Part shown: in pieces, positions 14,971 through 35,706 of the stretch
Position numbering within the stretch: the stretch's first letter is position 1
How the letters are laid out: each line of letters opens with the position of its first letter
DNA from: Alphaproteobacteria bacterium
Lineage (GTDB): Bacteria > Pseudomonadota > Alphaproteobacteria > Sphingomonadales > Sphingomonadaceae
Assembly (NCBI GenBank): GCA_030430365.1
Contig: JAUIFP010000001.1
Coordinates: 88,755 to 152,754 of the forward strand
DNA length: 64,000 nt
Direction: 5' to 3'
The notes under the pieces: model-generated
Databases searched by the model: none
The model's input: only the letters and a program-made list of their open reading frames with translations
Told to the model about the DNA's origin: nothing
Position numbers and translations under genes: made by a program

Positions 14971-14973
14971 CTT

Positions 14974-18703: not shown

Positions 18704-19530
18704 GCAACCGTCTGGCCAAGACTGCCGGACTCACGGTCCTGTGGCTGCTGGTCGCCTGCTTCCTGCTGTTTCCCTTCTATTATGCGGTTGTCAGCTCGCT
18801 GCGGGCCGGATCCGAGATATTCGAAGCGAGCCTGTGGCCTGCCGATCCCGGCCTCGCAAATTACCGGCAGGTCATGGTGGACCAGCCTTTTGCGCGCAAT
18901 ATCCTGAACTCGCTGATGGTCGCCTGCGCCGTCGTCGTGCTTTCTTTGGGGCTGGCAGTCTTCGCCGCCTATTCCTTCGGCCGCACGCATTTTCGCGGGC
19001 GAAGGCTGCTGCTCTACACAATTCTGGGCGTTTCGATGTTCCCCCAGGTGGCGGTGCTTTCCGGCCTGTTCGAAATCGTCCGCCTGTTCGGCCTCTATAA
19101 CAATCTGCTCAGTCTGATCTTCAGCTACATGATCTTCACCTTGCCCTTCACGGTCTGGGTCATGACCAGCTTCATGCGCGAACTGCCGGTGGAGATTGAA
19201 GAGGCTGCGATCATGGACGGTGCCGGGCCATGGACGATCGTGACCCGTATCTTCCTGCCGCTGCTCGCGCCCGCTCTCGTCACGACCGGGCTGCTCGCTT
19301 TCATTGCCGCATGGAACGAGTTTCTCTTCGCTTTGAGTTTCACTCTGACTAATGAACAGCGCACTGTGCCGGTCGCCATTGCGCTGATCACTGGCGCAAG
19401 CCAGTTCGAGCTTCCCTGGGGCAACATCATGGCTGCATCGGTGATCGTCACCGTTCCCCTGATCGCGCTGGTGCTGGTGTTCCAGCGGCGGCTTGTCGCG
19501 GGGCTGACGGCGGGTGCGGTAAAGGGGTAG
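18700..19530 (+). CDS. Carbohydrate ABC transporter permease (MalG type)
   Basis: PFYYAVVSSLRAGSEIF; EAAIMDGAGPWTIVTRIFLPLLAPALVTTGLLAFIAAWNEFLFAL. Confidence 0.93.
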   Translation: MSNRLAKTAGLTVLWLLVACFLLFPFYYAVVSSLRAGSEIFEASLWPADPGLANYRQVMVDQPFARNILNSLMVACAVVVLSLGLAVFAAYSFGRTHFRGRRLLLYTILGVSMFPQVAVLSGLFEIVRLFGLYNNLLSLIFSYMIFTLPFTVWVMTSFMRELPVEIEEAAIMDGAGPWTIVTRIFLPLLAPALVTTGLLAFIAAWNEFLFALSFTLTNEQRTVPVAIALITGASQFELPWGNIMAASVIVTVPLIALVLVFQRRLVAGLTAGAVKG

Positions 19531-19532
19531 AT

Positions 19533-20588
19533 ATGACGTCCGTCACACTCGAAGGCATAGGCAAGAGTTTCGGCAAGACCGAGGTGATCTCCCATGTCGA
19601 TCTGGCGATCGAAAGCGGCGAGTTCGTGGTCTTTGTCGGCGCTTCGGGCTCCGGCAAGTCGACGCTGCTGCGCATGATCGCGGGGCTGGAAAGCCCGTCA
19701 TCCGGCCAAGTGCTGATCGGCGGACGGGATGTTACCTCGGCGCCCCCGTCGGAACGCGGCGTGTCCATGGTGTTCCAGTCCTATGCGCTATACCCGCATA
19801 TGACGGTGCGGCAGAATATTGCCTTCGGGCTCAAGCTGGCCAAGGCGGGCAAGGAAAGTATTGCCGAGGCGGTTGGGCGCGTTGCGCAGATGCTGCAGAT
19901 CGAGAACCTGCTCGACCGCAAGCCGAGCCAGCTTTCGGGCGGTCAACGGCAGCGTGTCGCCATTGCGCGGGCGATTGTCCGCGAACCGGAAGTCTTCCTG
20001 TTCGACGAGCCGCTATCGAATCTCGATGCCGCATTGCGGACGCAGACCCGGATGGAGATCAAGGAACTCCACCGCTCGCTTGGCGCGACGATGATCTATG
20101 TCACGCATGATCAGGTGGAGGCGATGTCGCTGGCGGACCGCATGGTCATCCTGCACCAGGGGAGGGTGGAGCAGGTGGGGCCCCCATCCGAACTCTATCA
20201 CCGGCCGGCGACCGCATATGTTGCCGCCTTTCTCGGCTCTCCGACCATGAACTTCCTGTCGCCAGAGCGGATCGAGGGTGCGGAGGCTTTGCTCGCTTCC
20301 GGCGAACGCATCCCGCTCCCGCAGGGTGATTGGGGCAAGGCGGCCAGCGTCGGCATCCGGCCGGAAGATATCGAAATCGGGCAGGAGGGGCTGCCTGCCA
20401 CGGTCGAGATGGTGGAAGAACTGGGCGAAACGCGGATCGTCCACGCCAGGCTTTCGGACGGCGAAGAATTGGCCATTCGCAGCCGCGAGCTCTCGGAAGA
20501 GGATCGCAACAGTAAGATTCGCATTACCTTTGCGCCCGAGCGGCTGCATCTGTTCGGCAAAGATGGAAGGCGCCTGGAAGCAGGCTGA
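19533..20588 (+). CDS. Sugar ABC transporter ATP-binding protein (MalK/UgpC type)
   Basis: Walker A GASGSGKST, LSGGQRQRVAIARAIV, Walker B VFLFDEPLSNLDA, C-terminal TOBE-like region. Confidence 0.95.
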   Translation: MTSVTLEGIGKSFGKTEVISHVDLAIESGEFVVFVGASGSGKSTLLRMIAGLESPSSGQVLIGGRDVTSAPPSERGVSMVFQSYALYPHMTVRQNIAFGLKLAKAGKESIAEAVGRVAQMLQIENLLDRKPSQLSGGQRQRVAIARAIVREPEVFLFDEPLSNLDAALRTQTRMEIKELHRSLGATMIYVTHDQVEAMSLADRMVILHQGRVEQVGPPSELYHRPATAYVAAFLGSPTMNFLSPERIEGAEALLASGERIPLPQGDWGKAASVGIRPEDIEIGQEGLPATVEMVEELGETRIVHARLSDGEELAIRSRELSEEDRNSKIRITFAPERLHLFGKDGRRLEAG

Positions 20589-20602: not shown

Positions 20603-21028
20603 CTACCACATGGGCAAGGGATTCACTTTGTCCTTGGGCACTTCCTGATGAATATCCCAATGCTCCACGATCTTGCCGTCGACCACTCTGAACGTGTCGG
20701 AGATGACCACGCCGGGATCGCCTTCGTGTCGGATCACGTGGTGCTGCGTCACAACGAATTCACCGCTGCCGAAGCGCCGATCGACCAGCAGCTTCATCTC
20801 TGATTCCTTGTTGCGCCCGATATCGATCGTTTCGACCTCGAGATATTCGATCAGCCCTTCAAGATTGCCGTCCCGGACATTGGGATTGTGCTCGATGAAG
20901 TCTGGCGAAACGAAACGTTCGACCGCTTCGCGCACTTGGTGATTCAGAATCATTTGGTCGAACCGTTCAATGATAGCCACCGGGTCCATCAATTCGTCGG
21001 TTTCGGTATCCAGAGCCATTTCACTCAT
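20603..21028 (-). CDS. SnoaL/NTF2-like domain protein
   Basis: DQMILNHQVREAVERFVSPDFIEHNPNVRDG...VVISDTFRVVDGKIVEHWDIHQEVP is typical of NTF2-like/SnoaL proteins. Confidence 0.8.
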   Translation of the reverse strand: MSEMALDTETDELMDPVAIIERFDQMILNHQVREAVERFVSPDFIEHNPNVRDGNLEGLIEYLEVETIDIGRNKESEMKLLVDRRFGSGEFVVTQHHVIRHEGDPGVVISDTFRVVDGKIVEHWDIHQEVPKDKVNPLPMW

Positions 21029-21124
21029 CCTCTCAAAGCGCTTGCGATCTTATGCAAGATTGTATTCTTTCGTAGCCATGTGAAGCCAGGCGCTGCCAGA
21101 AGCAAGCCGGCTTGGGAGAGGCGC

Positions 21125-21718
21125 ATGTTCGACAAGCTCGTTTTTGCCGCGCGCATGGTGCTCGGAATTTTCTATCTGCTCAGCGGATTGAACTGGTTTT
21201 TCGGCTTCCTGCCGCTGCCGCATCTTGGAATGCCGGAAGGCTTCCCGATCAAGCACGCGGTTGTGGCCGAAATGATCGATACGGGCTGGATGTTCCAATC
21301 TGCCAAGCTGGTCGAAATTGCGTTCGGGATTGCGCTGCTTGCCAACCGCGCGGTGCCGCTGATGCTGCTTGTCGCTTTCCCGATCGGCTTGATGACCTTC
21401 ATGCTCGACGCGCTGATCCTGGATGACCTCTGGCGCTGGTTGCAGGGAAGCGAGAGCGGAGCTGAAATGTGGGCGGCCTTCATGGACATGGTGGTTGGGG
21501 GGCTATGCGTCTTCCTCATCCATGTCTGGTTGATGCTTTGCTATTTCGACTATTACCGGCCCTTGCTGGCCTGGTCGGCACCCCCGAAGGCAATGTCGGG
21601 CTGCGTCTCGCCGGATGGGCGCAGAACCCAGCGGATCCTGTTCTTTTCCCTGGGATGGCTGGCGCTCGCACTCCAGACGTTCAACCTGATCATGTTTCTG
21701 AGTCTCATCGGGAAATAG
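21125..21718 (+). CDS. DoxX-like integral membrane protein (paralog A)
   Basis: MFDKLVFAARMVLGIFYLLSGLNWFFGFLPLP...LVEIAFGIALLANRAVPLMLLVAFPIG...YYRPLLAW; hydrophobic. ATG at 21125. Confidence 0.75.
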   Translation: MFDKLVFAARMVLGIFYLLSGLNWFFGFLPLPHLGMPEGFPIKHAVVAEMIDTGWMFQSAKLVEIAFGIALLANRAVPLMLLVAFPIGLMTFMLDALILDDLWRWLQGSESGAEMWAAFMDMVVGGLCVFLIHVWLMLCYFDYYRPLLAWSAPPKAMSGCVSPDGRRTQRILFFSLGWLALALQTFNLIMFLSLIGK

Positions 21719-21805
21719 GGCGACTTCCGCGCGGCCATCCCCAGAGTGGCTGCTTTGCAACACCTGTTCGCAGCTTGCGCTCTTCAACGCGGAACTTCTT
21801 GTAGA

Positions 21806-21823
21806 TATCTTAGGAACAAGATA
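21806..21823. promoter_or_regulatory. Inverted repeat TATCTT-N6-AAGATA, candidate MarR operator
   Basis: TATCTT AGGAAC AAGATA read directly in the ~350 bp region upstream of the TonB receptor at 22073; same arms and spacing as 33351-33370. Confidence 0.45.
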
Positions 21824-22072
21824 AATCGTCTAACAATGGTTTCGAAAGTTGCCAGTGAATGGCCGATGCCGGCACAGCCGGCGCGAACCTCGATAGGTTG
21901 AGTAGGTAAAGCTTACCGATAAAATGGGCCGCAATAATAAAATCTAGAACATAATAAAAACGATGACAGCAGGACACTGCTGCAAACCTGAAAGCGTATA
22001 AGAACCAATAAACCAGGCCGGATTCTTGAAATGATCGAGGGTTACAGGCTGCTTATAGGATAAGGGGGAGTG

Positions 22073-24904
22073 ATGATTTCATCCAATCGACTTGGCAAAG
22101 CCGGAGCATCTGCAAGGCTTGCCGTATCCGTTTCTTTGATCGCTCTTGGCACCTTCGGCGCAACATCGGTTGCCGCCCAGGATGCTCCGATCGTTGTTAC
22201 CGGCACGCGCATTGAAGGTGTGGCCCCCGTCGGTTCTTCCGTGATTCCGGTCGGCCGCGAAGAACTGGAAGAAATGGGCGCCAGCACCGTCAACGACGCG
22301 CTGCGCAAGATTCCTCAAGTCGTCAATTTCGGCGGCTCTGACGAGCAGACCGGTGGCGCCACGATCCAGAACTCTTCACTCAACACCTTCTTCGCCAAAT
22401 CGGTGAACCTGCGCGGCCTCGGCACTGCCGCGACGCTGAACCTGGTGAACAACCACCGCGTTGCGCCGCAGGGCCCGAACGGCCAGCTCTATGACGCGGA
22501 TAACATTCCCGGCATTGCGATCGAGCGGATCGAAGTCGTCGCCGATGGTGGTTCGGCCATCTACGGTTCCGACGCGATTGGCGGTGTGGTGAACTACATC
22601 ACGCGTCGCCCCGAAGACACGATCGAAGCACGCTTCCGCGCAGGTTTTGCCGACGGTTTCGAGGAATATATCGCTTCCTTCGCCGTGGGTAAGACCTGGG
22701 ACACGGGCGGCATGTTCTTTGCCTATGAATATCAGGATCGCGGCGCTCTGCTCGCCTCCGATCGTCCGGATCTCTATAATAGCGACCTGTCGGAATTCGG
22801 CGGAGGTCCCGATCCCTTCTTTTCCAGCCCCGGCAATGTGCAGTTCGCAGTAAACGGCCCCGCTTACGGAATTCCCTCCGGGCAGGACGGAACCTCATTG
22901 ACGTTTGCCGACCTGCTGGACAGCCCCAATCGCCAAAGCCAATGGTATGGGGCGGATGCGATCCCGGGCTACAACCGGCACTCCGTTTCGGGGACGCTCA
23001 CCCAGGATATCGGAAGCTTCGTCACCTTCAACGCTGACGGCTTCTTCTCGCGGCGCAATTTCGTGCTCAATGAAGCGGGTATCGATCAACAGATTACTGT
23101 TCCGAACACCAATCCTTACAGCCCGTGCGCTCCCGGTTCGGTGGACATTGCAGATTGCCCGGCTGATGGCACGCTCTACGTTCCTTACAACTTCATCGAC
23201 TCGCTGGGCCCCACGATCAGCAGCGGATATGAAGAGATTTGGGCTGTTTCGGGCGGCTTTGACGTCGATTTCGGAAGCAGCTGGAAAGCCAATGTCAGTG
23301 GCTATTACAGCGAAGACGATGCATATATCTCGCGCACCAACATGGTGAACAGCACGGCGCTGCAACGCGTGGTTTCCGGCAGCGCAGCCGATATCGACAA
23401 GCCCGCAGACGTGCCGTTCTTCAATCCGTTCTGCGATGCGAGCCAGTTTGACTGCAATCCGGAAGCGACGCTGGCCCATTTCCGTGCATTCACGGATATC
23501 GGTTCAACCTACGAGCTTTACGGCGGCACGGCCAACATCAATGGCGAGCTGTTCGATATCGGCGGCGGTTCGGTTCGTCTGGCCGTGGGCGGCGAATATC
23601 ATCACGATACGCTTTCCGGCACCGGGCAGATCACGAATGTGCGTGGGCCTACGGTCGATAATCCGCGAGGCATTCCCGCCACGAATAATCGCGAGGTCAA
23701 ATCGGTCTATGGCGAAGTCTTCGTGCCGATCGTCGGGGTCGACAACGCCATGCCCGGCGTCGAACGGCTCGAGTTCAATGCTGCCGTCCGTTATGACGAT
23801 TACAGCGATGTTGGCGGAACGACCAATCCCAAGTTCGGCGTAAATTATTCGCCGGTCGCAGGGGTCACCTTCCGCGGCAGCTATGGCACCTCGTTCCGTG
23901 CACCGAGCCTGGTCGACGTCAACAAATACGCCACAGCAGGTTTCCTGATCCGCAGCGCAACGGGCGATGCCATCGGTCTTTCGCCGGGTGACAACACATT
24001 CACCTATACTTATCCGGCTGGCGGCAACCCCGATCTGAGTCCGGAAACGGCGGAAACCTGGTCTGTCGGAATGGATATCGATTCCGATCTCGTTCCCGGG
24101 GTGACGGCGTCGCTGACCTATTACAACATCACCTATGAGAACAAGATCGATACGGCGACCTTCAACGCGCCGATCGCGGCGGTGCTGAATTCGGGAATTT
24201 ATGACGACTTCATCGTCTTCAATCCGGACTTCTTCCCTGACAAGGCGACGATGTCAATCGACGAATATGTCGCCTACTGGGATTCGCTGCAGGATCCTTT
24301 CCTTCCGGTTCTGGGCCCAATCCCGGGCGGCGATCCCGCAAATCTGATCGCCATCATCGATGCGCGGCGGAACAATCAGGGCGTCGTGAAGACGGACGGT
24401 TTCGACTTCTCGTTCAACTACGACATCGAAGGCGGCTTCGCCGACTTCAACATCGGCACCCAGTTCAACTACATCCTGCATTACAAGACCGCGCCTGTGG
24501 CAGCTGCGACGCTCAGGGACGAGGTGAACCACTTCGGCTATCCCGCGCAGTTCGTCGGCAGGCTGGAACTGGGCATGGATGTAGGCGGCTTCTCGGGCAC
24601 GGCGTTCATCAATTACGTCAATGGCCGCGAGATCACGCGCGACTTCCTGTCGCCGTCAGTGCCGGATCAATATCTGGACATCGATTCCTACACCACGGTC
24701 GACCTGACTTTGACCTACGATTTCGAGGATAGCGATCTGCCATTCGCGAATGGCCTGTCTTTGTCGGTCACTGCGCAGAATCTGTTCGATGCGAAGCCGC
24801 CATTGGTCGTGAACGCAGGCGAATATGCCATTCGCTTCGATCCTTCCTATTCGAGCTCGATCGGCCGTTTCGTCGCAGTCTCGGTGGCGAAGAAGTTCTG
24901 GTAA
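22073..24904 (+). CDS. TonB-dependent outer-membrane receptor
   Basis: Signal peptide, TonB-box-like PIVVTGTRIEG, plug IAIERIEVVADGGSAIYGSDAIGGVVNYITRR, C-terminal aromatic ending VSVAKKFW. Confidence 0.95.
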   Translation: MISSNRLGKAGASARLAVSVSLIALGTFGATSVAAQDAPIVVTGTRIEGVAPVGSSVIPVGREELEEMGASTVNDALRKIPQVVNFGGSDEQTGGATIQNSSLNTFFAKSVNLRGLGTAATLNLVNNHRVAPQGPNGQLYDADNIPGIAIERIEVVADGGSAIYGSDAIGGVVNYITRRPEDTIEARFRAGFADGFEEYIASFAVGKTWDTGGMFFAYEYQDRGALLASDRPDLYNSDLSEFGGGPDPFFSSPGNVQFAVNGPAYGIPSGQDGTSLTFADLLDSPNRQSQWYGADAIPGYNRHSVSGTLTQDIGSFVTFNADGFFSRRNFVLNEAGIDQQITVPNTNPYSPCAPGSVDIADCPADGTLYVPYNFIDSLGPTISSGYEEIWAVSGGFDVDFGSSWKANVSGYYSEDDAYISRTNMVNSTALQRVVSGSAADIDKPADVPFFNPFCDASQFDCNPEATLAHFRAFTDIGSTYELYGGTANINGELFDIGGGSVRLAVGGEYHHDTLSGTGQITNVRGPTVDNPRGIPATNNREVKSVYGEVFVPIVGVDNAMPGVERLEFNAAVRYDDYSDVGGTTNPKFGVNYSPVAGVTFRGSYGTSFRAPSLVDVNKYATAGFLIRSATGDAIGLSPGDNTFTYTYPAGGNPDLSPETAETWSVGMDIDSDLVPGVTASLTYYNITYENKIDTATFNAPIAAVLNSGIYDDFIVFNPDFFPDKATMSIDEYVAYWDSLQDPFLPVLGPIPGGDPANLIAIIDARRNNQGVVKTDGFDFSFNYDIEGGFADFNIGTQFNYILHYKTAPVAAATLRDEVNHFGYPAQFVGRLELGMDVGGFSGTAFINYVNGREITRDFLSPSVPDQYLDIDSYTTVDLTLTYDFEDSDLPFANGLSLSVTAQNLFDAKPPLVVNAGEYAIRFDPSYSSSIGRFVAVSVAKKFW

Positions 24905-24967
24905 TGGGAGGGGAAGGCCGCGCCAGCTGATATCAGTGACCCAATCGCATGACGGGGTTCGGTGATC

Positions 24968-25537
24968 ATGGCTGGCGCGGCTGATCCGAAAAAGAAAGGC
25001 GGCGGGGGCAATGCCTTCGCCGCCTTCGTTTATGGATGCCAGTTCCTTTATGGCGGCTGGTTCCTGTTCCACGGGCTCAACTACTGGTTCGCATTCTATT
25101 TCGACCAATCGGTTCAGCCAGGCCCTGGCCTGGTTCCGGCACTGGCCGCATCCGGCGTAATGGCTATTGTGAAGATGCTGGAAGTCGCAATTGGTCTGGC
25201 CTTGCTGCTGGACCTGTTCGCGGCCTTGGCGATCGTCGCGGCCTGGCCGATCACCTTGATGATCGCCTTCGTCACGTCGTCGCACTTTTCACCTTTCGGC
25301 ATATCGGTTGCCGCGGTGATCATCGGCCTGAATGCGATCATGTCATTCGGCCATCTCGATCGCTACCGCCCCATGCTGGCCATGACGGCGGGGCGACCAA
25401 ATTGGGGAGGACCAGGGGACGAAACGGAGAGGCGGGATGCGTCACGCTTGCCGCCCATGCTGCATTTCTGGGCTGCGCTTGCCGGGCTGATCGCTGCCAT
25501 TGCCATAACCTATCTCAGCCTGGCTTTGCGTGGCTGA
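24968..25537 (+). CDS. DoxX-like integral membrane protein (paralog B)
   Basis: FLYGGWFLFHGLNYWFAFYFDQ...MVKMLEVAIGLALLLD-type segment...HLDRYRPMLAM; ATG at 24968. Confidence 0.72.
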   Translation: MAGAADPKKKGGGGNAFAAFVYGCQFLYGGWFLFHGLNYWFAFYFDQSVQPGPGLVPALAASGVMAIVKMLEVAIGLALLLDLFAALAIVAAWPITLMIAFVTSSHFSPFGISVAAVIIGLNAIMSFGHLDRYRPMLAMTAGRPNWGGPGDETERRDASRLPPMLHFWAALAGLIAAIAITYLSLALRG

Positions 25538-25578
25538 TGCGCGCACCGGATAGATAGAAAGAAGGGAGAGCGGGCACC

Positions 25579-26739
25579 ATGAACAAGAAACTCCATGCAA
25601 TCATTCTCACTGGCCTGATTTGCACAGCAGGGGCTGGCTCGCTCGCCCAAGCGGAAGAGCCCAGCGGCAAGGCGCCGCTGGTGATCGCGCAGCAGGGCAA
25701 CTTCTATGTCGGCGGCCGGGAGGTCGCGCTGGAAGGCGGGACCATCGTCGCCGATGAGATGTATGTCGAGTATCAGATACCCGCAGAGCAGACCCATCCT
25801 TATCCGCTGGTCTTTCTCCATGGCGGCATGTCGAGCGGAGCCTATTGGTGGAGCAGGCCCGATGGCGGGGAAGGCTGGGCCACGCTGTTCCTGCGCAAAG
25901 GCTATGCGGTCTATGTCGTCGACCGCCCGACCCATGGCCGCTCCCCGCATTACGAGGATATTGACGGCAAGGCGCATTTGCCGCCGCTATCCATGCCGCG
26001 CCCGGGGCCGGGATCCGATCCTGAGCCGGACGATCCCGACAACCGTTTCCCTGGCAGCAAAGTGCCGGGCGATCCGGCCTATGAACAATCGCTGAGAGGG
26101 CGTCAGGCATCTGTTGAGCTGCCATTCGGCTTGCCCGATCCCGTGGCCGTTAGCGCCAGGATGGATGGCTATGACCGCGAAGCGGGCGCGGCCCTGCTCG
26201 ACCGGATCGGGCCAGCCGTTCTGGTCACCCATTCGCGCTCCGGAGCTTCCGGCTGGCAGATTGCGGACGCGCGGCCCGAACTGGTGAAGGCGATCGTCGC
26301 GGCCGAGCCCAATGGGCCGCCATTCTACAACGCGCCGCCACTGGGGCAGCCGGGCGATCCCGTTTCACGGCCATTCGGCATCACTTACGCTCCGCTGACA
26401 TACGATCCTGCCGTGGAAACGGTGGCGGATTTCGGCGGACTCGTGCAGCGCGATCCCGAAGGCGAAGGGCTAGTGGGCTGCTGGGTGCCGCGAGGGGAAC
26501 AGCCGCAACTGGTCAATCTCTCGGACATTCCAGTGATGGTGATGACGGGCGAATCCTCCTACCATGCGGGCTACGATCACTGCACGGCGCAATATTTTTC
26601 GGCTGCCGGAGTTCCGGCGGATTACGTCAATCTCGGGGACATGGGCATCACGGGCAATACGCATAGCTTTATGCGCGAGACCAACAATGCCGAGCTTGCT
26701 GATATTGCGGCCGAGTGGCTGACCGAAAAGGGGCTTTAA
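25579..26739 (+). CDS. Exported alpha/beta hydrolase
   Basis: Signal peptide MNKKLHAIILTGLICTAGAGSLAQA; VFLHGGMSSGAYWWSRPDG, YVVDRPTHGRS, nucleophile elbow VTHSRSGASG. Confidence 0.85.
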   Translation: MNKKLHAIILTGLICTAGAGSLAQAEEPSGKAPLVIAQQGNFYVGGREVALEGGTIVADEMYVEYQIPAEQTHPYPLVFLHGGMSSGAYWWSRPDGGEGWATLFLRKGYAVYVVDRPTHGRSPHYEDIDGKAHLPPLSMPRPGPGSDPEPDDPDNRFPGSKVPGDPAYEQSLRGRQASVELPFGLPDPVAVSARMDGYDREAGAALLDRIGPAVLVTHSRSGASGWQIADARPELVKAIVAAEPNGPPFYNAPPLGQPGDPVSRPFGITYAPLTYDPAVETVADFGGLVQRDPEGEGLVGCWVPRGEQPQLVNLSDIPVMVMTGESSYHAGYDHCTAQYFSAAGVPADYVNLGDMGITGNTHSFMRETNNAELADIAAEWLTEKGL

Positions 26740-28226
26740 CGGCGCTTCGCGAAATAGCCGTCGAGGAATTGCTGCACATCTGCTCGCGGTGTTTCGATGA
26801 CTTTGGGGTCGGGTGAGAGCTCCATCAGCCGGGGTTCGTCCGGGTCGTAGGCCGGCCAGCGCGGCAGGCCCGGTCGGTTCGGATCGCCTTGCCGCGCGAA
26901 GTTCGCCCAATAGCTGGCCATCAGCTCCGACAGGCGCCGGTCTTCATCGGTCCAAGGCTGGTCCTCGCTCTCCAGCGTCTGGAAGACATAGACCATCTCC
27001 CCGCCGTGAAACGCGCCCTGTTCCCGCTTGCCCGGCCAGGCCTTGTCGAACCAGTACAGCCACGCATCTTCTTCGCCGGTGCGCGATTGCAGCTCCGCCC
27101 ATGAACGCATCTGCCATTGCACGGCATCGGTCGCCGATTGCGCCAGCTTGTCTTCCGCGCCCTCATAGAAACCGTCGAACTCGGCGCGTTCCTGCTCATC
27201 GGGCCGGACCCATTCCATGCGGATGGTGGAGCCTTCATAGGAGTTCGAGCCGACCAGCGTCGGCACGTCGTTCTGCCGCCCTTCGGCAAAGATATTGTAG
27301 ACCAGGTCGGGCAGAACATATCCGTCCCGCTCGGTCGGCCAGAAGAAGGTGAAGGCCGACAGGATGTCTTCCAGCGGCAGCGCGCGCATTTCGGCAATGC
27401 TTTCAGCGCCCAGCTTATCGGCAAATGCTAGGCCGTACTCGCCTGCCGAGTTGAGGTCCTGGCGCCCGATAAGGCCGCCATCGGGGTCCATCTGCGACGT
27501 GCTTTCGCCGATCGCCTTGTGAAACAGCCCTTCGGCCAAGGGCGATGCCTGCAGGATATTGACGGCACCGGCGCCTGCAGATTCCCCGAAGATGGTCACA
27601 TTGCCCGGGTCGCCCCCGAAAGCGGCAATATTCTGCTGAACCCAGCGCAAGGCGGCGATCTGGTCCAGAATGCCGTAATTGCCCGAGGACCCGTAAGGCG
27701 CTTCAGCGGTTAGCTCCGGATGGGCCATGAAGCCCAGCGCACCTAGGCGATAGTTGATCGTCACCAGCACGATGCCCTTTTCGGCAAAGGCGGTGCCGTC
27801 GAATGTCGGCCTGCTGCCGGAACCGAATTGATAGCCGCCGCCATGGATCCACACCATGACGGGCAGTGCTTCCTCCCGCCCGGCCGAAGCCCAGATGTTC
27901 AAGGTCAGGCAGTCCTCGCTCATTGCAGGCCCGGCGACATCCGGAGCGCGGCTCTGCGCGCAGATCGGGCCGAAGCTGCCTGCATCGCGAACGCCTTGCC
28001 ATCCGTCTGCCGGTTGCGGTGCCTTCCAGCGCAACGTGCCGGTCGGAGGTGCCGCATAGGGTATGCCGAGATATCGTTCGATCCCGTCACTGCTAGTCCC
28101 GCGCACGATACCTTGTTCGATTTCCGCAGTGGGGCCGGGCCGGGTGTCTTCGGCAAGGCTGCGATCGGGCGCCGCAATGCCAGCTGCCGCGCAGCACAAA
28201 AGGGAAGCGAATAGACGGCTTCTCAT
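26736..28226 (-). CDS. Exported type-B carboxylesterase
   Basis: Signal peptide MRSRLFASLLCCAAAGIAAPDRSLA; RYLGIPYAAPPTGTLRWKAPQP, EDCLTLNIWA, VMVWIHGGGYQFGSG, TIFGESAGAGAV. Confidence 0.93.
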   Translation of the reverse strand: MRSRLFASLLCCAAAGIAAPDRSLAEDTRPGPTAEIEQGIVRGTSSDGIERYLGIPYAAPPTGTLRWKAPQPADGWQGVRDAGSFGPICAQSRAPDVAGPAMSEDCLTLNIWASAGREEALPVMVWIHGGGYQFGSGSRPTFDGTAFAEKGIVLVTINYRLGALGFMAHPELTAEAPYGSSGNYGILDQIAALRWVQQNIAAFGGDPGNVTIFGESAGAGAVNILQASPLAEGLFHKAIGESTSQMDPDGGLIGRQDLNSAGEYGLAFADKLGAESIAEMRALPLEDILSAFTFFWPTERDGYVLPDLVYNIFAEGRQNDVPTLVGSNSYEGSTIRMEWVRPDEQERAEFDGFYEGAEDKLAQSATDAVQWQMRSWAELQSRTGEEDAWLYWFDKAWPGKREQGAFHGGEMVYVFQTLESEDQPWTDEDRRLSELMASYWANFARQGDPNRPGLPRWPAYDPDEPRLMELSPDPKVIETPRADVQQFLDGYFAKRR

Positions 28227-29590
28227 GGGTGCGTCTCCAACGGTTTCGAAGCGGTTTGGCTTCGCACGGCCCACCCCGCGAGACCGCAAAGTGCAATCAA
28301 GGCTGCCACAACGCCGAAGAAGCCGACCGAGCCCCCCAGATCGAGCGACATCACTCCGGTGAAGGAGCTTAGCACGGCGCCAATGCGGCCGGTGGCCGAT
28401 GCCGTACCGACGCCGGTGGCGCGCACTTCTGTGGGATAGATGCTGGCAGCCAGCGTGTAGAGCGTGTTGTGCAGCCCAGCCAGGCAAAAGCCGAGCGCCA
28501 TCATGGCCGGCAGGATAATGAGCACCGAAAGAACGCCCAGGCCCAGCATTGCAGCCAGTGCCACGGCCATGACCGTTCCCATGGCGGCATATCCGACATG
28601 GGTCATGCGAAAGCCGTAGCGGTCCAGCAGGAATCCGCTGATCAATGCGCCGACCACGCTTCCCGAATGGAAGGTCATGATCCCATAGCTTGTGGTTGTA
28701 AGATCGAAGCCCAGCGTATGCAGCATGGTCGGAACCCAGCTGAACAGGGTGTAGCTGGACATCAGGCAAGTGAAGAAGCCGGCCCAGATCAGCAAGGTTC
28801 TGGCCCGGAATTCAGGCGCAACCAATGTACGCACCGGGGCCGCGACCGATTCCTGCACTGGCGGAACCAGAAATGTTTCGTCTGCGCTATGCGGTATGCG
28901 GCACTTCTCAAGCAAACGCTTCAGCCCCGCTTCCTTCCCTCCGCGCAGCAGGAAGGCTGGCGATTCCGGCAGCATGGCCGCGAATATCGTGCCCAGGATG
29001 AGCGGCACCAGCCCGGCAATCAGCAGCAGCGGGCGCCAGCCCACATGCTCCAGCAGGGAAGCGCCCATGGCGCCTGCGGTGATGCCTCCGATAGGAATGA
29101 AGACCATGCCGATCGCGATGGCTCTGCCGCGCCGGCGCTCGGGCGTGAACTCCGCGATCATCGCGGCTCCGTTGGGGATGGCCGCCCCGATGCCCAGGCC
29201 GTCCACGAAGCGCACCAGCATCAATTGCGTTGGATCCTGCGTGACGGCCCCCAGAGACGTCATGATCCCGAACAGGAAGATCGCCGAGATCAGTGCCCAG
29301 CGCCGCCCGATCCGGTCACCGATCAGGCCGCCCAAAACCGAACCGAACGCCACGCCGGCAAGGTTGGCCGCGTGCACCGGCGCAAAGGCCGACCGCTCCA
29401 GGCCCCAGTCCTGGATGATCGAGGGCAGGGCGATGCCCAGCGATTGGTTGGCCAGGCCGTCGACCGCAAACACCAGAGCCAGACAGCCCAGAATGGCTTT
29501 CTGATAGAGGCTCCATGGCGCGTCGTTTATCGCTGTATCGATGGTGCGCGGCGCAGTGCCGCCGCTGCTTGGGGTCTCTGCCGCGCTCAT
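28223..29590 (-). CDS. MFS transporter, aromatic acid:H+ symporter (AAHS)-like
   Basis: GVAFGSVLGGLIGDRIGRRWALI, RFVDGLGIGAAIPNGAAMIAEFTPERRRGRAIA, 12-TM pattern. Confidence 0.85.
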   Translation of the reverse strand: MSAAETPSSGGTAPRTIDTAINDAPWSLYQKAILGCLALVFAVDGLANQSLGIALPSIIQDWGLERSAFAPVHAANLAGVAFGSVLGGLIGDRIGRRWALISAIFLFGIMTSLGAVTQDPTQLMLVRFVDGLGIGAAIPNGAAMIAEFTPERRRGRAIAIGMVFIPIGGITAGAMGASLLEHVGWRPLLLIAGLVPLILGTIFAAMLPESPAFLLRGGKEAGLKRLLEKCRIPHSADETFLVPPVQESVAAPVRTLVAPEFRARTLLIWAGFFTCLMSSYTLFSWVPTMLHTLGFDLTTTSYGIMTFHSGSVVGALISGFLLDRYGFRMTHVGYAAMGTVMAVALAAMLGLGVLSVLIILPAMMALGFCLAGLHNTLYTLAASIYPTEVRATGVGTASATGRIGAVLSSFTGVMSLDLGGSVGFFGVVAALIALCGLAGWAVRSQTASKPLETHP

Positions 29591-30195
29591 GATCGCGCCT
29601 CCGCGCTCTTGTCGCTTCCGGCGAGAAAATGTGGCGGAGCCGCATAGGCCTTCATCACCAGGAAGGGCCTGTAATAGCGGAAATAGGCGAGCAGCAGCGC
29701 GCAGTTCACGCCCAGCTCAAGCGGGCCTGTCAGCAATTGGCGCGGCGTGCCGGTGACAAAGAAATTGAGGTAGAAGATCGTCGCGCTTGTCGGCACTTCC
29801 AGCACGAGCATCAGCGGAACCCAGCGATTGAGCACCAGCATGATCCCCACAAGGCCCTCCATGGCCTTGATCCCGGGATAGACCCCCATCACACCCAGAA
29901 TTTCGATGAAGGGGCCGGCTACCGGATGTGGAATGGCCGGGATCGTATCGGCAACCCAGAAGCGGTATGACGAATAGATCAGATGCAGCCCCCAATAGAT
30001 GCGCAGCGCATCCGTGATCTGGTCCGCCGTCGTCCGTTCGGGATCGAGGTGACGCAGTATGGTTGCCCCGGCCACGCCGGCCAGAATGGGAATGCCGAAG
30101 AAGATGAAAGTGTCGAAGCGGGCGAACAGCAGAATGAAGATCGCGACTGCGCAGAACAGCGCAGCCGGGATTGCAAAGGCCTTTGGTACAGGCAT
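29587..30195 (-). CDS. DoxX-like integral membrane protein (paralog C)
   Basis: MEGLVGIMLVLNRWVPLMLVLEVPTSATIFYLNFF...FRYYRPFLVMKAYAAPPHF; stop overlaps downstream MFS start. ATG at 30195. Confidence 0.72.
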   Translation of the reverse strand: MPVPKAFAIPAALFCAVAIFILLFARFDTFIFFGIPILAGVAGATILRHLDPERTTADQITDALRIYWGLHLIYSSYRFWVADTIPAIPHPVAGPFIEILGVMGVYPGIKAMEGLVGIMLVLNRWVPLMLVLEVPTSATIFYLNFFVTGTPRQLLTGPLELGVNCALLLAYFRYYRPFLVMKAYAAPPHFLAGSDKSAEARS

Positions 30196-30274
30196 TCCTC
30201 TTCCTTTCCTTGTTCCTCGAGCTTTTTGTTTCTTGTTGCTCTGAGGATGCATTCTCGGGCGCGCTGCGCCCGGA

Positions 30275-31396
30275 TCAGTCCATATATTCCATCTCGCGGT
30301 AATAGCTCTGGGCCCCGGGATGCAGCGGAACGCCTTTACCGTCCCACACAGTTTGCGGATCGAGCGAATAGGGGCGGACGAACCATTTGAGTTCGCCCCG
30401 GTTTCGGTCGATCGCGCGGGCCAGGGCATAGGCGATCTCGTCGGGCATATCGGCGCGGGCCATGATGACTTCGCCGGAGCGGCCCACTGTTTCGATCGCC
30501 CTGTCGACCCCGCGCAAGACGCCCCAGCGGGCGGTTACGCGCTGCATGCCCAGTTGATCGTCCGCCATTGCATCCAGCAGTTCTTCCGGCAGGTCCAGGA
30601 AGGTCAGGTCATGCGTGCTTGCCAGGATCGTCCAGTAATCCGATTCAGGATTGTTGGCGGGGCTGGCCAGGCTGGAAATGATGATGTCGAACGGCGTTTC
30701 GGCCGTGACGTCCCGCGGCGAGGTGAGTTCGCCGCCCCAGCCCGCCAGGCTTTCCTTGTCGAGCCCATAATAGTCGAGCACCGGCATCGTGCTCGGCTGG
30801 AAATCCGCGAGAATGCGCACCGGCAGTTTGCGCTCGCGGATTTCGGCGAGGCTTTCGATCCCGAGTTCCGCCTTGGCCGCGACAAGCAGATAGGTCGGGT
30901 CCTCGATACGCGCGATCAGCCGCAGATTGGGATAGGGCCCGTCTTTCGCGTAGATATACTGCCCCTCATAGGCCCAACGGAACATGTTGGCCTCGGTCAC
31001 GCCGAAGTCGATCGGGGCATCGACCCGTTCGGTCGTTCCATGTTCGAAATCGCCATCGACCAGCTCGGGCGGATGGGCGGCCTTCGCCACGATCCGCGGT
31101 CCTTCTGCGCGGTTGCAGTTGCGGCATAAGATGATCTCGTAGCCTTCGTCCGCCATGGCTTCCTGCACGAATTCGCCCAGTTCGCCCCAGGGGCAGGCAT
31201 GCGGACAGGCCGACGCCATGACCAGGCGCTTGGTATCGTAACCCGTCTCGCCGACATCCACTGTCTTCCCGGTTTCAGCGGATGCCTGCTGCGGGACGGC
31301 GAGGGCCGCCAGCAATGCCGCGGCGATCGTCATGAACCACAAGCCGATTGGGGCGGTGCGGCGCATTTCGTGCCCGGTTGTTCTGTTCTGATACAT
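30275..31396 (-). CDS. TAXI-family-like solute-binding protein with Cys-rich N-terminal region
   Basis: Signal peptide; overall TAXI/TRAP-receptor-like pattern (SLAEIRERKLPVRIL, C-terminal ...GVPLHPGAQSYYREM); CPHAC and CRNC motifs. Confidence 0.6.
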   Translation of the reverse strand: MYQNRTTGHEMRRTAPIGLWFMTIAAALLAALAVPQQASAETGKTVDVGETGYDTKRLVMASACPHACPWGELGEFVQEAMADEGYEIILCRNCNRAEGPRIVAKAAHPPELVDGDFEHGTTERVDAPIDFGVTEANMFRWAYEGQYIYAKDGPYPNLRLIARIEDPTYLLVAAKAELGIESLAEIRERKLPVRILADFQPSTMPVLDYYGLDKESLAGWGGELTSPRDVTAETPFDIIISSLASPANNPESDYWTILASTHDLTFLDLPEELLDAMADDQLGMQRVTARWGVLRGVDRAIETVGRSGEVIMARADMPDEIAYALARAIDRNRGELKWFVRPYSLDPQTVWDGKGVPLHPGAQSYYREMEYMD

Positions 31397-31401
31397 GTTT
31401 T

Positions 31402-32817
31402 TCAGGTCCTCTTATGTCCGCTCAATTCCGCGCCGGCGTCATGATCGAGGCGCCGGAAGCTGAAGACTGCCAGCACCAGCAGGGATGCGATCACCAGCAG
31501 CGCGATCCTGAAGTCCGCGAGGTTCGGCGCGTCTCCCCAGCGTCCATGCATGGCCGCCAGCCAGTTCAGCATGATCGCCGTCAGAGAAATCGCGATGGCG
31601 CTGGTCAGCTGCTGGAACACGTTCCACAGCACCGTCGCCTGGATCGTCTGCTCCTCCGGGATTTCCGTGTAGAGCAGCGTCTGAACCCCGGTGAACAGGA
31701 TCGACCGGCTCGCGCCGATCAGCGCCAGGCTGGCCAGAATAACCCATACCGGAGTTTCGGGCGTGAATGCTGCGCACAGCGCCGTACCGATCGCCGCCGC
31801 GATGGAAGTTGCGATCACGTTGGAGCGATAGCCGAACCGGGCCAGGATCTTCCGGATGAACGGCTTGATGACAAGGTCAGAGCCGTTGAGCATGATCAGC
31901 GCCATTCCTGCGGCAAAGGCGCTCATGCCCATGGTCAGCTGGAACATCAGCGGCAGAATGAAGGGCAGCGCGCGCAAGGCGATCCTGATCGACGCGCCTC
32001 CGCCCAGCACAGCGATGCGGTAGATCCGCGATTGCAGCGGCTCGGCCGAAAGAATCGGATGCGGATTGCCCCGCAGATGGAACAGCAGCAGAATTCCCGC
32101 TGCCGCGCCCACGGCCAGGCAAGCCAGCGCGAAGGCCAGGCTGCTGCTGGCCGAGCTGATCCTGTCTAGCCCCAGCAAGATCCCGGTCATCGCCAGGGCC
32201 GCCAGAACGAAACCGCGCGTGTCGAAAGGGCGCGGTTCCTGCGCGTCCAGTTCCGGAACGTAGCGGATGATCAGATAGACGCTCAGCAGGCCAGGCGGAA
32301 TGTTGATGAAGAAGGCCCAGGGCCAGGTCAGATAGGTCACGCAAAAGCCGCCGATCGCGGGGCCGAAAGTCGGCGCGATCAGCACGACCGAGGCCGTCAG
32401 CGACATAACCTGGACGAGCTTCTTCTTGCCTGCGCTGCGGATCAGCACCGCGCTGCCGACCGGCATCATCAGCGCTGCACAGGCGCCCTGGAAGATGCGG
32501 GCCGCAACGAATTGTTCGAGTGACTGGGTAAGCCCGCAAAGCAGCGAAGCGAATGTGAAGCCCAGCACCGATACGGCAAATATGCGCTTCGCCCCGAAGC
32601 GGTCGGCCAGCCAGGCGCTCGCTGGCAGACCTGCAGCATGGGCCAGGAGATAGACGGTGATGCCGATCGACATGTCGACCGGGGCGACGCCGAAATCTCC
32701 CGCCAATGTCGGCAGGGCAGTGTGGATGACGGTGGCGTCGAGCTGCCCCATGAACATGGCCGCCGCGAATGCCGCCGCCGTCAGGGCTATCGCCTTGCCC
32801 TCAGCCATTGGCCGCAA
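31402..32817 (-). CDS. MFS transporter, DHA2/EmrB-QacA type
   Basis: MGQLDATVIHTALPTLAGDFG (LDxTVVNVALP-like), AWLADRFGAKRIF, PTFGPAIGGFCVTYLTWPWAFFINIPPGLL. Confidence 0.9.
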   Translation of the reverse strand: MRPMAEGKAIALTAAAFAAAMFMGQLDATVIHTALPTLAGDFGVAPVDMSIGITVYLLAHAAGLPASAWLADRFGAKRIFAVSVLGFTFASLLCGLTQSLEQFVAARIFQGACAALMMPVGSAVLIRSAGKKKLVQVMSLTASVVLIAPTFGPAIGGFCVTYLTWPWAFFINIPPGLLSVYLIIRYVPELDAQEPRPFDTRGFVLAALAMTGILLGLDRISSASSSLAFALACLAVGAAAGILLLFHLRGNPHPILSAEPLQSRIYRIAVLGGGASIRIALRALPFILPLMFQLTMGMSAFAAGMALIMLNGSDLVIKPFIRKILARFGYRSNVIATSIAAAIGTALCAAFTPETPVWVILASLALIGASRSILFTGVQTLLYTEIPEEQTIQATVLWNVFQQLTSAIAISLTAIMLNWLAAMHGRWGDAPNLADFRIALLVIASLLVLAVFSFRRLDHDAGAELSGHKRT

Positions 32818-32874
32818 TGATCGGCGGCAATGCCTTTCCGCCGGCAGGTCGCGGCATTGCCTGCCAGCCGCGCA

Positions 32875-33219
32875 TCAAAGGTCGATCACGAGTTTCTTGC
32901 TCAGGGATCCTGAGCAGCAGATCATCATGGACTTGCCCGCGCGCTTTTCCGCTGGCGAGAGCACCGCATCGAAATGGTCCGGCACGCCTTCCAGAACGGA
33001 GACTTCGCAGGTCCCGCAGGTTCCGCCCTCGCAATTGGAAGGGGCGTCCACTCCGGCATCGCGGACCACCTCCAGGATGGATTTGCCCGGCGGTACCGTC
33101 AGTGTGAGCTTGGAATGCGCCAATTCGACTTCGAAGCTATCCTGCGGCTGCAATTCGCCGTCCGGATTGTTCTCGCCAGGGGAAGCGGGATCTTGCAAGG
33201 TGTTCTCGGCTCCGTTCAT
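32875..33219 (-). CDS. Stand-alone plant-type [2Fe-2S] ferredoxin resembling the C-terminal domain of phthalate dioxygenase reductase-type enzymes
   Basis: CEGGTCGTCEVSVLEGVPDHFDAVLSPAEKRAGKSMMICCSGSLSKKLVIDL: CX4CX2C plus distal Cys; about 114 aa with no reductase domain. Confidence 0.87.
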   Translation of the reverse strand: MNGAENTLQDPASPGENNPDGELQPQDSFEVELAHSKLTLTVPPGKSILEVVRDAGVDAPSNCEGGTCGTCEVSVLEGVPDHFDAVLSPAEKRAGKSMMICCSGSLSKKLVIDL

Positions 33220-33350
33220 TGTCCAATTACTTGATAACAAATATTATTTTTTCATTGTGGCGCTTCGGCCTTCCTATGTTGCTTATTCCAGGCCGCGCCG
33301 CGGAATGCGGCGGATGAAAAAGGAGGCGCGATGGCCGGCAAAGATCCAAA

Positions 33351-33370
33351 ATATCTTAGCTCTAAGATAT
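33351..33370. promoter_or_regulatory. 20-bp palindrome ATATCTTAG-CT-CTAAGATAT, candidate MarR operator
   Basis: Perfect 9-bp arms between divergent ferredoxin operon and flavoprotein; a TTGACA hexamer follows at 33372-33377. Confidence 0.6.
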
Positions 33371-33467
33371 ATTGACACTCAACCCTCCTGTAAATAGGAG
33401 CTTGACCAAACGCGGCAGTTTGGCGTGGCCAGGGCCGCAATTCAGCAGATTGGGTGAGGAGCATCGC

Positions 33468-35054
33468 TTGACGAAAGAAGTACAAACCTCCGTTCTCGTG
33501 ATTGGAGGCGGCTCGGCGGCGACACGCGCTGCGCTTGAGGCCGCAGCGGCTGGTGCGTCCGTGATGCTGGCCGACAAGGGTGTGGTGGGCGATAGCGGTT
33601 CCAGCCCGCATGCATTGGTTGGCTTCAGTGTACCTCTGCTCGACGAAGACGACAGCAGCGAATTGTTCGTGGAAGACTGGGCCAATGCCAGTGGCGGTAT
33701 CTGCGATCGCGATCTGGTGGCGCAATGCGCCAAATATGGCCGCGGCCTGGCCGAGGATATGGAAGAGCGCGGCGTCCCTTTCATCAAGAACAAGGATGGC
33801 AGCTGGTTCATTGCCAAGCGGGCCGGGCACAGCGTGCGGCGGACGATCCAGGCCGAAGGGCTGGGCAAGGGGGTCCACTCCAATGTGATCGCGCCGATGC
33901 GCCCGGCATTGATCGAAGCCGGTGTGGAGCTCAGCGAAAACACGATGATCACGCGCCTGCTCCTGGATGGGAACAGGGTGGCGGGTGCCTATGCAATCGG
34001 CCCCGATGGCGAGCCGTTCATCATTCGTGCCAATGCTGTCGTGCTGGCCTCCGGCGGGGTGAACCGCCTCTATTCGATCCTGTGCCTGGAAGTGAAGGAA
34101 CATCACAGCCGCACAACCGGTGATAGCTACGCGCTGGCCTTCCATGCAGGCGCTCCGATTATCGACATGGAATTCACCCAGTTTCGGGATTCTCCGCCGG
34201 CTGGCCCGATTTACGGGGCGCATTATGTGAACCGCCTGGGCGAGCGGATCATGGAGAAATACGATCCGGAGAACCTGGAATGCGCGCCGCGCTACATGAT
34301 GGGCCGCGCCATCCATACGGAGAATTTCGAAGGCCGCGGGCCTGTGGTCTGGCATGTCGAGGAAGGGCAGGTCGCCCGTTCGCGCGCGCCGGTCGGCGAA
34401 TCCCAGTTCCTGCCCGGTGACACGATCGAGATCACGTTGATGTTCCAGCGGCTGATGGGCGGCGCGCGGATCGATGTGAACGCGGCCACGGCCATCACCG
34501 GCCTCTATGCCGCGGGCGAGGCTTCGGGCGGCATCCATGGCGGGGACCGCATGCAGGGCTGCGGCTTCCTGGAGACGCAGACATTCGGCCTGATCGCCGG
34601 ACGCAGTGCCGCCGCCTTTGCGGCAGAGAACGGCTTGGCCGATATAGATCCGCAGGCGGTTGCCGCGGAAGAGGCGCGCCTGGCCACGCCCTCTGGCAGT
34701 GCCGATCCCGCTAAGATGGTGGAGGATATCCAGAACCTGATGTGGGAGCAGGCCGGTATCGTTTCGAACCGGGAAAGGCTGCTCGACGCGATCGCGAAGC
34801 TGCAGGAAATGCGCCGCATCGCTGCAGAGGATATCGATACGTCGGACCTCGTCGCGGCAGAGGAAGTGCGCAATCTTGCCCTGGCCGCCGAACTGGTGGC
34901 GACGGCAAAGCTCACACGGGAAGAGACCCGTAGCGGACACGGCCGGACCGATTTCCCCGAAGCGAGCAAGGACTGGGTCAAGCATGTCGAGCTTGCGCGC
35001 GGCGCGGACGGTTCGGTGTCCGTCGATACGATCCCGGTGCAGGAAAGCTTCTAG
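33468..35054 (+). CDS. FAD-binding (fumarate reductase/succinate dehydrogenase flavoprotein-like) protein
   Basis: TSVLVIGGGSAATRAALEAAAAGASVMLADKG, VLASGGVNRLYS, GLYAAGEASGGIHGGDRMQGCGF. TTG start at 33468 with GAGGAG upstream preferred over listed 33372, which lies in a promoter-like hexamer. Confidence 0.85.
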   Translation: MTKEVQTSVLVIGGGSAATRAALEAAAAGASVMLADKGVVGDSGSSPHALVGFSVPLLDEDDSSELFVEDWANASGGICDRDLVAQCAKYGRGLAEDMEERGVPFIKNKDGSWFIAKRAGHSVRRTIQAEGLGKGVHSNVIAPMRPALIEAGVELSENTMITRLLLDGNRVAGAYAIGPDGEPFIIRANAVVLASGGVNRLYSILCLEVKEHHSRTTGDSYALAFHAGAPIIDMEFTQFRDSPPAGPIYGAHYVNRLGERIMEKYDPENLECAPRYMMGRAIHTENFEGRGPVVWHVEEGQVARSRAPVGESQFLPGDTIEITLMFQRLMGGARIDVNAATAITGLYAAGEASGGIHGGDRMQGCGFLETQTFGLIAGRSAAAFAAENGLADIDPQAVAAEEARLATPSGSADPAKMVEDIQNLMWEQAGIVSNRERLLDAIAKLQEMRRIAAEDIDTSDLVAAEEVRNLALAAELVATAKLTREETRSGHGRTDFPEASKDWVKHVELARGADGSVSVDTIPVQESF

Positions 35055-35109
35055 GGCAGGGCTGCTCGCTCGCTTCGAAATTCGGAGCGCGCGCGCGGAG
35101 GCCTGCCGT

Positions 35110-35706
35110 TTAAGGGAGCGCGGCTTCGATCGAATGCAGCAGTTTCTGCAGGAAGACGTTGCCGCGCCTCAGATCCTGCTGGGTTAGCTTCTTCATCAAG
35201 GCCTGTTCGACGTCCGCCACCTTCTTCATGGTGTCGAATGCGAGTTCGTATCCCCCCTGCGTCAGTTCGATCAGCAGCGAACGCTGATCGCTGGGATGGG
35301 AAACGCGCTTGATCAGTTTGCGCGATTCAAGCCTGCGCGCGAGCCCGGTGAGGCCGCCCGAAGTGACCGGCACGTAGTGGCCGGCAATATCCGTGGGCGA
35401 TGCACGGTGCGGCTTTCCGATCCGCAGCAGCGCGGCGAGCAGGCGGAACTCGTTGTCGGACAGCCCGGCTTCCTTGAGGATAATCGCGGTCATCGAACGC
35501 ATCCGGTCGTCAATACGCGCAACCCGGGCCACGATCGCGCGCACATCCTTGTCCAGCGTGGGGACGACGCTGTCCCATTCCCTTACCAGGCGGTCGACAG
35601 CGGAATCGAGCAAATGCACATGGCTGACGGCATGGAGATCGGCCAGGTTTCGCGTCGGCCCGGGCTCTTTCTGGGCAGCCGCTTTTCTTTTCCGTTCAGG
35701 CTTCAT
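35110..35706 (-). CDS. MarR family transcriptional regulator
   Basis: AGLSDNEFRLLAALLRIGKPHRASPTDIAGHYVPVTSGGLTGLARRLESRKLIKRVSHPSDQRSLLIELTQGGYEL: winged helix with MarR DxR wing motif. Confidence 0.9.
   Translation of the reverse strand: MKPERKRKAAAQKEPGPTRNLADLHAVSHVHLLDSAVDRLVREWDSVVPTLDKDVRAIVARVARIDDRMRSMTAIILKEAGLSDNEFRLLAALLRIGKPHRASPTDIAGHYVPVTSGGLTGLARRLESRKLIKRVSHPSDQRSLLIELTQGGYELAFDTMKKVADVEQALMKKLTQQDLRRGNVFLQKLLHSIEAALP

Follow-up and report, generated by a model that had tools for sequence, protein, structure and literature searches.

A putative MarR-repressed catabolic regulon with DoxX-like paralogues in a sphingomonad genome

We analysed a 64,000-nucleotide stretch of a Sphingomonadaceae genome (GenBank assembly GCA_030430365.1, contig JAUIFP010000001.1, positions 88,755 to 152,754), here called the window. 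It contains a gene island that extends from a gene for a DoxX-like membrane protein (21125) to the gene for a MarR-family regulator (35706). Gene content, gene order in relatives and a conserved operator indicate that this island is probably a catabolic regulon under MarR repression, whose substrate would be an aromatic or alicyclic carboxylate in ester form. Its unusual parts would be the DoxX-like proteins, a TAXI-like solute-binding protein without permease and a succinate dehydrogenase (SDH)-family flavoprotein that lacks the catalytic histidines. The cluster is rare, conserved and, as far as our searches reach, uncharacterised. Since the assembly (3.02 Mb) is only about 78% complete, all statements about absence from this strain are provisional.

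Layout and recurrence of the island

The plus-strand run (21125-26739) encodes DoxX-like protein 1 (DoxX1, 21125-21718), a TonB-dependent outer-membrane receptor (22070-24904; Pfam Plug and TonB barrel), DoxX2 (24962-25537) and an exported alpha/beta hydrolase (25579-26739). It converges tail to tail, at 26736-26739, with a minus-strand run that reads from 33219/33240 down to 26736. This run encodes a 121-aa 2Fe-2S ferredoxin of the phthalate-dioxygenase-reductase type (32875-33219/33240; Pfam Fer2), a DHA2-type major facilitator superfamily (MFS) transporter (31402-32817), the TAXI-like protein (30275-31396), DoxX3 (29587-30195), an AAHS-type MFS importer resembling PcaK and MhpT (28223-29590; TIGR00895, E 6e-83, under the curated cut-off) and an exported type-B carboxylesterase (26736-28226; Pfam COesterase, E 7e-108). 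ATGA overlaps join DoxX3 to the AAHS gene (29587-29590) and the AAHS gene to the carboxylesterase gene (28223-28226). The flavoprotein gene (33468-35054, plus strand) and the MarR gene (35110-35706, minus strand; Pfam MarR_2) complete the island. The genes, both overlaps and the facing runs described in the original prediction, which was made from the letters of the sequence, are thus all present.

A search with the flavoprotein over a collection of 84,980 species returned five close loci and one distant homologue. At the five close loci the orthologues are 74-95% identical and again have the ferredoxin and MarR genes as neighbours; the MarR gene adjoins the flavoprotein gene in six of six loci. 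The five loci belong to a metagenome-assembled genome (MAG) of the same genus (L008, genome G469; flavoprotein 95% identical), a marine MAG (L009), Novosphingobium MD-1 (L010/L006), Sphingomonas canadensis FWC47 (L011) and the Novosphingobium MAG BIN27 (L012). The first four are syntenic and keep one order: TonB receptor, DoxX2, carboxylesterase, AAHS importer, DoxX3, TAXI-like protein, ferredoxin, flavoprotein and MarR. Three separate lineages retain this order, their proteins being about 60-77% identical; the flanks of the cluster vary. The receptor is 61-88% identical in the four relatives, and DoxX2 adjoins it in all of them. BIN27 has only the ferredoxin-flavoprotein-MarR core, together with a receptor, an MFS and a DoxX-like gene that are more distant. 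Syntenic recurrence in other sphingomonads had been named beforehand as a test of the prediction, and it is what we found. The distant homologue (45%, L013) is located in a Deltaproteobacterium MAG.

By sampling, the cluster is confined to few genomes. The TAXI gene was present in 1 of 151 genomes of the family, and the flavoprotein gene in 2 of 301 genomes of the order and in 1 of 399 in a broad sample of the phylum, which is the genome studied here. No flavoprotein relative was found in viral contigs.

The operator and MarR control

The original prediction reported the motif TATCTT-N6-AAGATA in both promoter regions. It is exact, with 6-6 palindromic arms, at 21806-21823 upstream of the TonB receptor gene (operator 2, TATCTTAGGAACAAGATA) and at 33352-33369 between the ferredoxin and flavoprotein genes (operator 1, TATCTTAGCTCTAAGATA). 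These are the only two exact sites in the whole assembly; the reversed-pattern control gave none. With up to two mismatches, four operator-like sites are present in the window, against 0.46 expected per window. Genome-wide, there are 24 sites at two mismatches versus 25 for the reversed control, so that no further operators are discernible and the weak matches are attributed to chance.

The sequence TATCTTAGNNCTAAGATA between the ferredoxin and flavoprotein genes is exact in all six loci. It is directly followed by TTGACA or TTGACT (TTGACA at 33372-33377, plus strand, in the window), and alignment of the six intergenic regions shows that the remaining spacer has diverged. The conserved TTGAC(A/T) is likely a -35 element abutting operator 1. 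Among 401 genomes of the family, TATCTTAGNNCTAAGATA was found in four, all of which carry the cluster or its core; BIN27, MD-1 and G469 are apparently among them. Operator 2 and its flanks are identical in G469 (locus L053); in MD-1 it was not seen.

The strongest evidence that one regulator may govern DoxX-like, oxygenase and island genes comes from additional sites in the relatives. G469 has two extra exact sites on other contigs, one before a stand-alone gene for a fourth DoxX-like protein (DoxX4) and one before a gene for a VanA_C Rieske oxygenase. In BIN27 a second operator with one mismatch precedes genes for a fusion of a short-chain dehydrogenase/reductase with a dienelactone hydrolase (SDR-DLH) and for a luciferase-type monooxygenase. 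A site with one mismatch also separates the far end of the S. canadensis cluster from a divergent hydrolase gene. The proposal that the island forms a single regulon is supported: the operators are exact, conserved in position and confined to genomes that have the cluster.

The MarR protein (best match in the PDB: 8ylh) is presumably a repressor, which would occupy the operator next to the -35 element and be released by a substrate or an intermediate. The operator resembles the 9-9 bp box of MhqR, sharing the outer TATCT and differing in the inner bases, and the mhqPOD cluster of Paenibacillus has been linked to degradation of 5,5′-dehydrodivanillate (DDVA; PMC12673573). For these reasons the inducer could plausibly be an aromatic or quinone-like compound.

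Membrane, binding and redox proteins

On profile comparison the three DoxX-like proteins are homologous to each other, as had been proposed. HHalign between ortholog groups gave probabilities of 97.6% (DoxX1-DoxX3), 96.8% (DoxX1-DoxX2) and 74% (DoxX2-DoxX3), with E-values from 3e-12 to 3e-5, while MFS control segments stayed below 1%. The set shares an invariant pattern of G, K, E and P; no cysteine is invariant across the family. The proteins of the window do not reach the Pfam DoxX gathering score (E 0.02-0.04 or no match), and the best match among 17 homologues has an E-value of 1.9e-5. The predicted model of DoxX3 is a helical bundle (predicted local distance difference test score, pLDDT, 83), and its top Foldseek match in the PDB is NACHO/TMEM35A (probability 0.99, target template modelling score 0.67, but a weak E-value of 0.66). 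We take TMEM35 to be DoxX-like. The DoxX assignment thus draws on the homology of the three proteins to each other, on a single homologue with E 2e-5 and on this fold match.

DoxX1 was seen only in the window, in G469 and in MD-1 (64% identity) among the loci compared. The DoxX family is widespread and mostly without assigned function; here a MarR operator is shared by paralogues and, once, stands at a distant locus of their own. Since up to four paralogues would be under one MarR operator, the DoxX-like proteins are tied to a specific catabolic signal. Our likeliest guess is that they are inner-membrane accessories to uptake or oxygenase steps. In the literature we found no paper on DoxX in Novosphingobium or on the DoxX family together with Rieske proteins and TonB receptors. 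A plasmid collection contained no DoxX2 homologue; its TAXI homologues (at most 27% identity) and flavoprotein homologues (about 31%) are uninformative on function.

Further DoxX-like genes of the same genome are located in likely catabolic clusters on contigs C125 (5396-15159), C103 (6985-12281) and C64 (9478-12588), where the neighbours include SnoaL-like, VanA-type Rieske, MFS and aldo-keto reductase genes. A position beside SnoaL-like or Rieske genes looks like a habit of the group. In the window, a small SnoaL-like protein (20603-21028, minus strand; Pfam SnoaL, E 3e-7) is encoded next to DoxX1. It is 92% identical in the closest relative (L053), the only other place where it stands beside DoxX1, and its membership of the island is doubtful. 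The preceding region (14188-20588), apparently without relation to the island, encodes a sugar-type ATP-binding cassette importer after sucrose-phosphate-phosphatase-like and GT20 genes.

The TAXI-like protein exceeds the cut-off of Pfam NMT1_3 (81.8 bits versus 27; E 8.5e-23) and stays below that of the NCBIfam model TRAP_TAXI, TIGR02122 (67.1 versus 84.35). Near its N-terminus it has a CxxxC and a CxxC pair, invariant in five orthologues, which fall before or outside the part that can be aligned with solved TAXI proteins. No permease of a tripartite ATP-independent periplasmic (TRAP) transporter (PF06808, DctM-type) was found in the strain's own genome or in genomes G932 and G933. Genomes G931 (on another contig) and G935 (about 350 kb away) have a single match each, neither of them linked to the island. 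All five loci with a TAXI gene have it next to DoxX3. Because of the cysteine pairs, the lack of a linked TRAP permease and the constant DoxX3 neighbour, we considered that the two proteins form a novel uptake or hand-over unit, in which a binding protein without TRAP permease is partnered by a DoxX-family membrane protein, the paralogues serving a TonB-fed oxygenase pathway as dedicated inner-membrane components under MarR control. This is a tentative idea, to which we give a low chance. The DHA2 transporter gene was found in L008 and S. canadensis but in neither the L009 nor the MD-1 locus.

The ferredoxin matches the terminal domain of phthalate-dioxygenase-reductase/VanB-type reductases and, in phmmer searches, P450-fused ferredoxin domains. 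In S. canadensis it forms the C-terminus of a longer protein that resembles a reductase; in the window no reductase with a C-terminal Fer2 domain is present and Fer2 stands alone. The flavoprotein carries FAD_binding_2 and Succ_DH_flav_C domains and belongs to the SDH/fumarate reductase/NadB family. Both of its catalytic histidines are replaced: MEFVQYHPTG reads MEFTQFRDSP, and Gln-Arg-Leu stands for His-Tyr-Thr before MGG. We presume that these positions are H232 and H355 of FrdA. The replacements are conserved among seven homologues, and the PR and GxxR arginines are kept. The cluster has no SdhB/FrdB iron-sulphur subunit, only the 121-aa Fer2 protein. Because both histidine positions are replaced, we rejected C4-dicarboxylate metabolism for this protein; as the arginines are retained, its substrate is likely another carboxylate. 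The AlphaFold model of the flavoprotein is poor (pLDDT 59.6). Immediately after the Deltaproteobacterium homologue comes a TctC-TctA-TctB-like transporter set, assigned by eye, which might be a further link to carboxylates.

Both esterases have a signal-like N-terminus. The alpha/beta hydrolase (GMSSG motif) belongs to a 1QLW-type esterase family (phmmer matches to 1qlw and the 8gol/7y0l group) and is absent from its usual place in S. canadensis. The type-B carboxylesterase (GESAG motif) is close to fumonisin B1 esterase and p-nitrobenzyl esterase. Just past the MarR gene, S. canadensis has an alpha-L-rhamnosidase gene (L011, 12315-15095), possibly a hint of plant glycosides.

The loci of the relatives contain additional enzymes. 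A VanA-type Rieske oxygenase, whose nearest PDB entries are dicamba O-demethylase and 7qwt, is encoded between the TAXI and ferredoxin genes in MD-1 (L006), L009 and S. canadensis. Past the receptor, L009 and S. canadensis have DoxX4, a luciferase-type monooxygenase, the SDR-DLH fusion and further genes, and a tannase-family esterase is found in the MD-1 and S. canadensis loci. Between L012, L092 and L093 the SDR-DLH proteins are 80-81% and the luciferase-type proteins 88% identical. Contig C100 of the strain's own genome encodes an SDR-DLH orthologue (78%) and a luciferase-type protein (52-55%) shortly after an operator-like site with two mismatches; its centre, AGCAGT, is the same as in the BIN27 site before the same gene. 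These oxygenases, the SDR-DLH fusion, DoxX4 and the tannase-family esterase occur in relatives beyond the gene set of the island, which therefore appears to be a larger catabolic locus in reduced form. The originally proposed outline of uptake, ester cleavage, inner-membrane transport and redox steps therefore fits the relatives, but the island would hold only part of the system, and its "redox system" appears to be left over from a pathway built on oxygenases.

Directly before the SDR-DLH and luciferase-type genes, contig C100 (L095, 3830-14313) also has VanA-type Rieske, two apparent P450 and dioxygenase-like genes, identified by eye. A conserved protein without Pfam match (L092 11208-12635 and L093 7311-8783; 62% mutual identity) is encoded beside SDR-DLH in S. 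canadensis and L009.

Proposed pathway, alternatives and known systems

In the pathway that we propose, the ester would enter through the TonB receptor and be cleaved in the periplasm by the alpha/beta hydrolase and the carboxylesterase. The TAXI-like protein might then bind the freed carboxylate, and the AAHS (and DHA2) transporter would bring it in. In the cytoplasm, Rieske and/or luciferase-type monooxygenases together with SDR-DLH could attack the ring (alcohol to ketone to lactone to hydroxy acid), and the flavoprotein with its ferredoxin would oxidise or reduce a C-C bond adjacent to the carboxylate. The window strain would have the reduced island here and the SDR-DLH/luciferase-type pair on another contig. 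An SDR, a luciferase-type monooxygenase and a DLH in a row recall the alcohol-ketone-lactone-hydroxyacid routes of alicyclic compounds. This row points to an alicyclic substrate and the VanA, AAHS and tannase genes to an aromatic one; we choose neither. Such a pathway would offer, in one place, uncharacterised esterases, an SDH-family flavoprotein with an altered active site and a permease-less TAXI protein. Microcystin degradation by MD-1 was dropped as a functional hint: it is credited to mlrA-mlrF (PMC7082461), and nothing ties the other strains to it.

Several points weigh against a catabolic regulon. The window island and L008 lack a Rieske/VanA_C oxygenase, and no Rieske orthologue above 51% identity was found in the strain's own, incomplete genome. 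The site on C100, with its two mismatches, is not significant alone, the reversed control being equally frequent. Because the cluster is rare, independent comparisons are few. The ester-type substrate, like MarR binding and induction, is a prediction.

Instead, the island might respond to quinone/phenol stress in the way of an MhqR regulon: MarR would sense hydroquinones, and the DoxX-like, esterase and redox proteins would detoxify them and not support growth. The operator equals the Staphylococcus aureus MhqR box (TATCTCGAA-aTCGAaATA; PMC6798810) in length and shares its TATCT start, and in G469 a Flavodoxin_2 gene resembling NAD(P)H-quinone reductases adjoins the operator-bearing Rieske gene. 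However, MarR boxes are generally alike, we recognised no gene for a ring-cleavage dioxygenase in the cluster, and the TonB receptor, the importers, the tannase-family esterase, SDR-DLH and two oxygenase types indicate catabolism. We regard this explanation as rather improbable.

Iron acquisition is considerably less credible. In this case an ester-type siderophore would be taken in by the receptor and opened by the hydrolases, and the ferredoxin and flavoprotein would reduce the iron. The best named models for the receptor are haem, B12 and siderophore receptors, all of them far under the cut-off. Siderophore esterases are alpha/beta hydrolases, too. A MarR regulator with its own operator, an MFS importer of the aromatic-acid type and the Rieske, SDR-DLH and tannase partners in relatives argue against this function. 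A chance neighbourhood of independently transcribed genes, to which the two facing runs, the divergent promoters and the variable flanks might point, is hardly conceivable, since it is already contradicted by the recurrence of one order at about 60-77% identity in three lineages and by an operator that remained exact while the surrounding intergenic DNA diverged.

A MarR-repressed catabolic regulon, which we thus prefer, has counterparts in known systems. Like the MhqR regulons of Firmicutes (PMC6798810, PMC12673573), the island combines a presumed MarR repressor, an 18-bp palindrome of the TATCT type and esterase/hydrolase genes; it differs in its other enzymes, in TonB uptake and in the lack of a recognised ring-cleavage dioxygenase. 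Its solute-binding protein resembles that of TAXI-TRAP transporters (NMT1_3/TAXI family), but is atypical and has extra cysteine pairs, and a TRAP permease was found neither in the island nor in the assembly. The VanA_C Rieske proteins of the relatives and the VanB-like reductase-ferredoxin fusion of S. canadensis resemble demethylases of the VanAB, dicamba (DdmC) and guaiacol type, whereas the window has no oxygenase and only the ferredoxin domain, located beside an SDH-family flavoprotein. Compared by gene types only, the DDVA system of Sphingobium SYK-6, with the TonB receptor DdvT, the MFS transporter DdvK and the Rieske O-demethylase LigX (PMC6874591, PMC12997858), is similar in that a sphingomonad handles a carboxylated aromatic by means of TonB-dependent uptake, an MFS importer and a multi-component oxygenase. 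In contrast to the DDVA system, the system described here would add two exported esterases, the TAXI-like protein, DoxX-like paralogues, SDR-DLH, a luciferase-type monooxygenase and MarR control.

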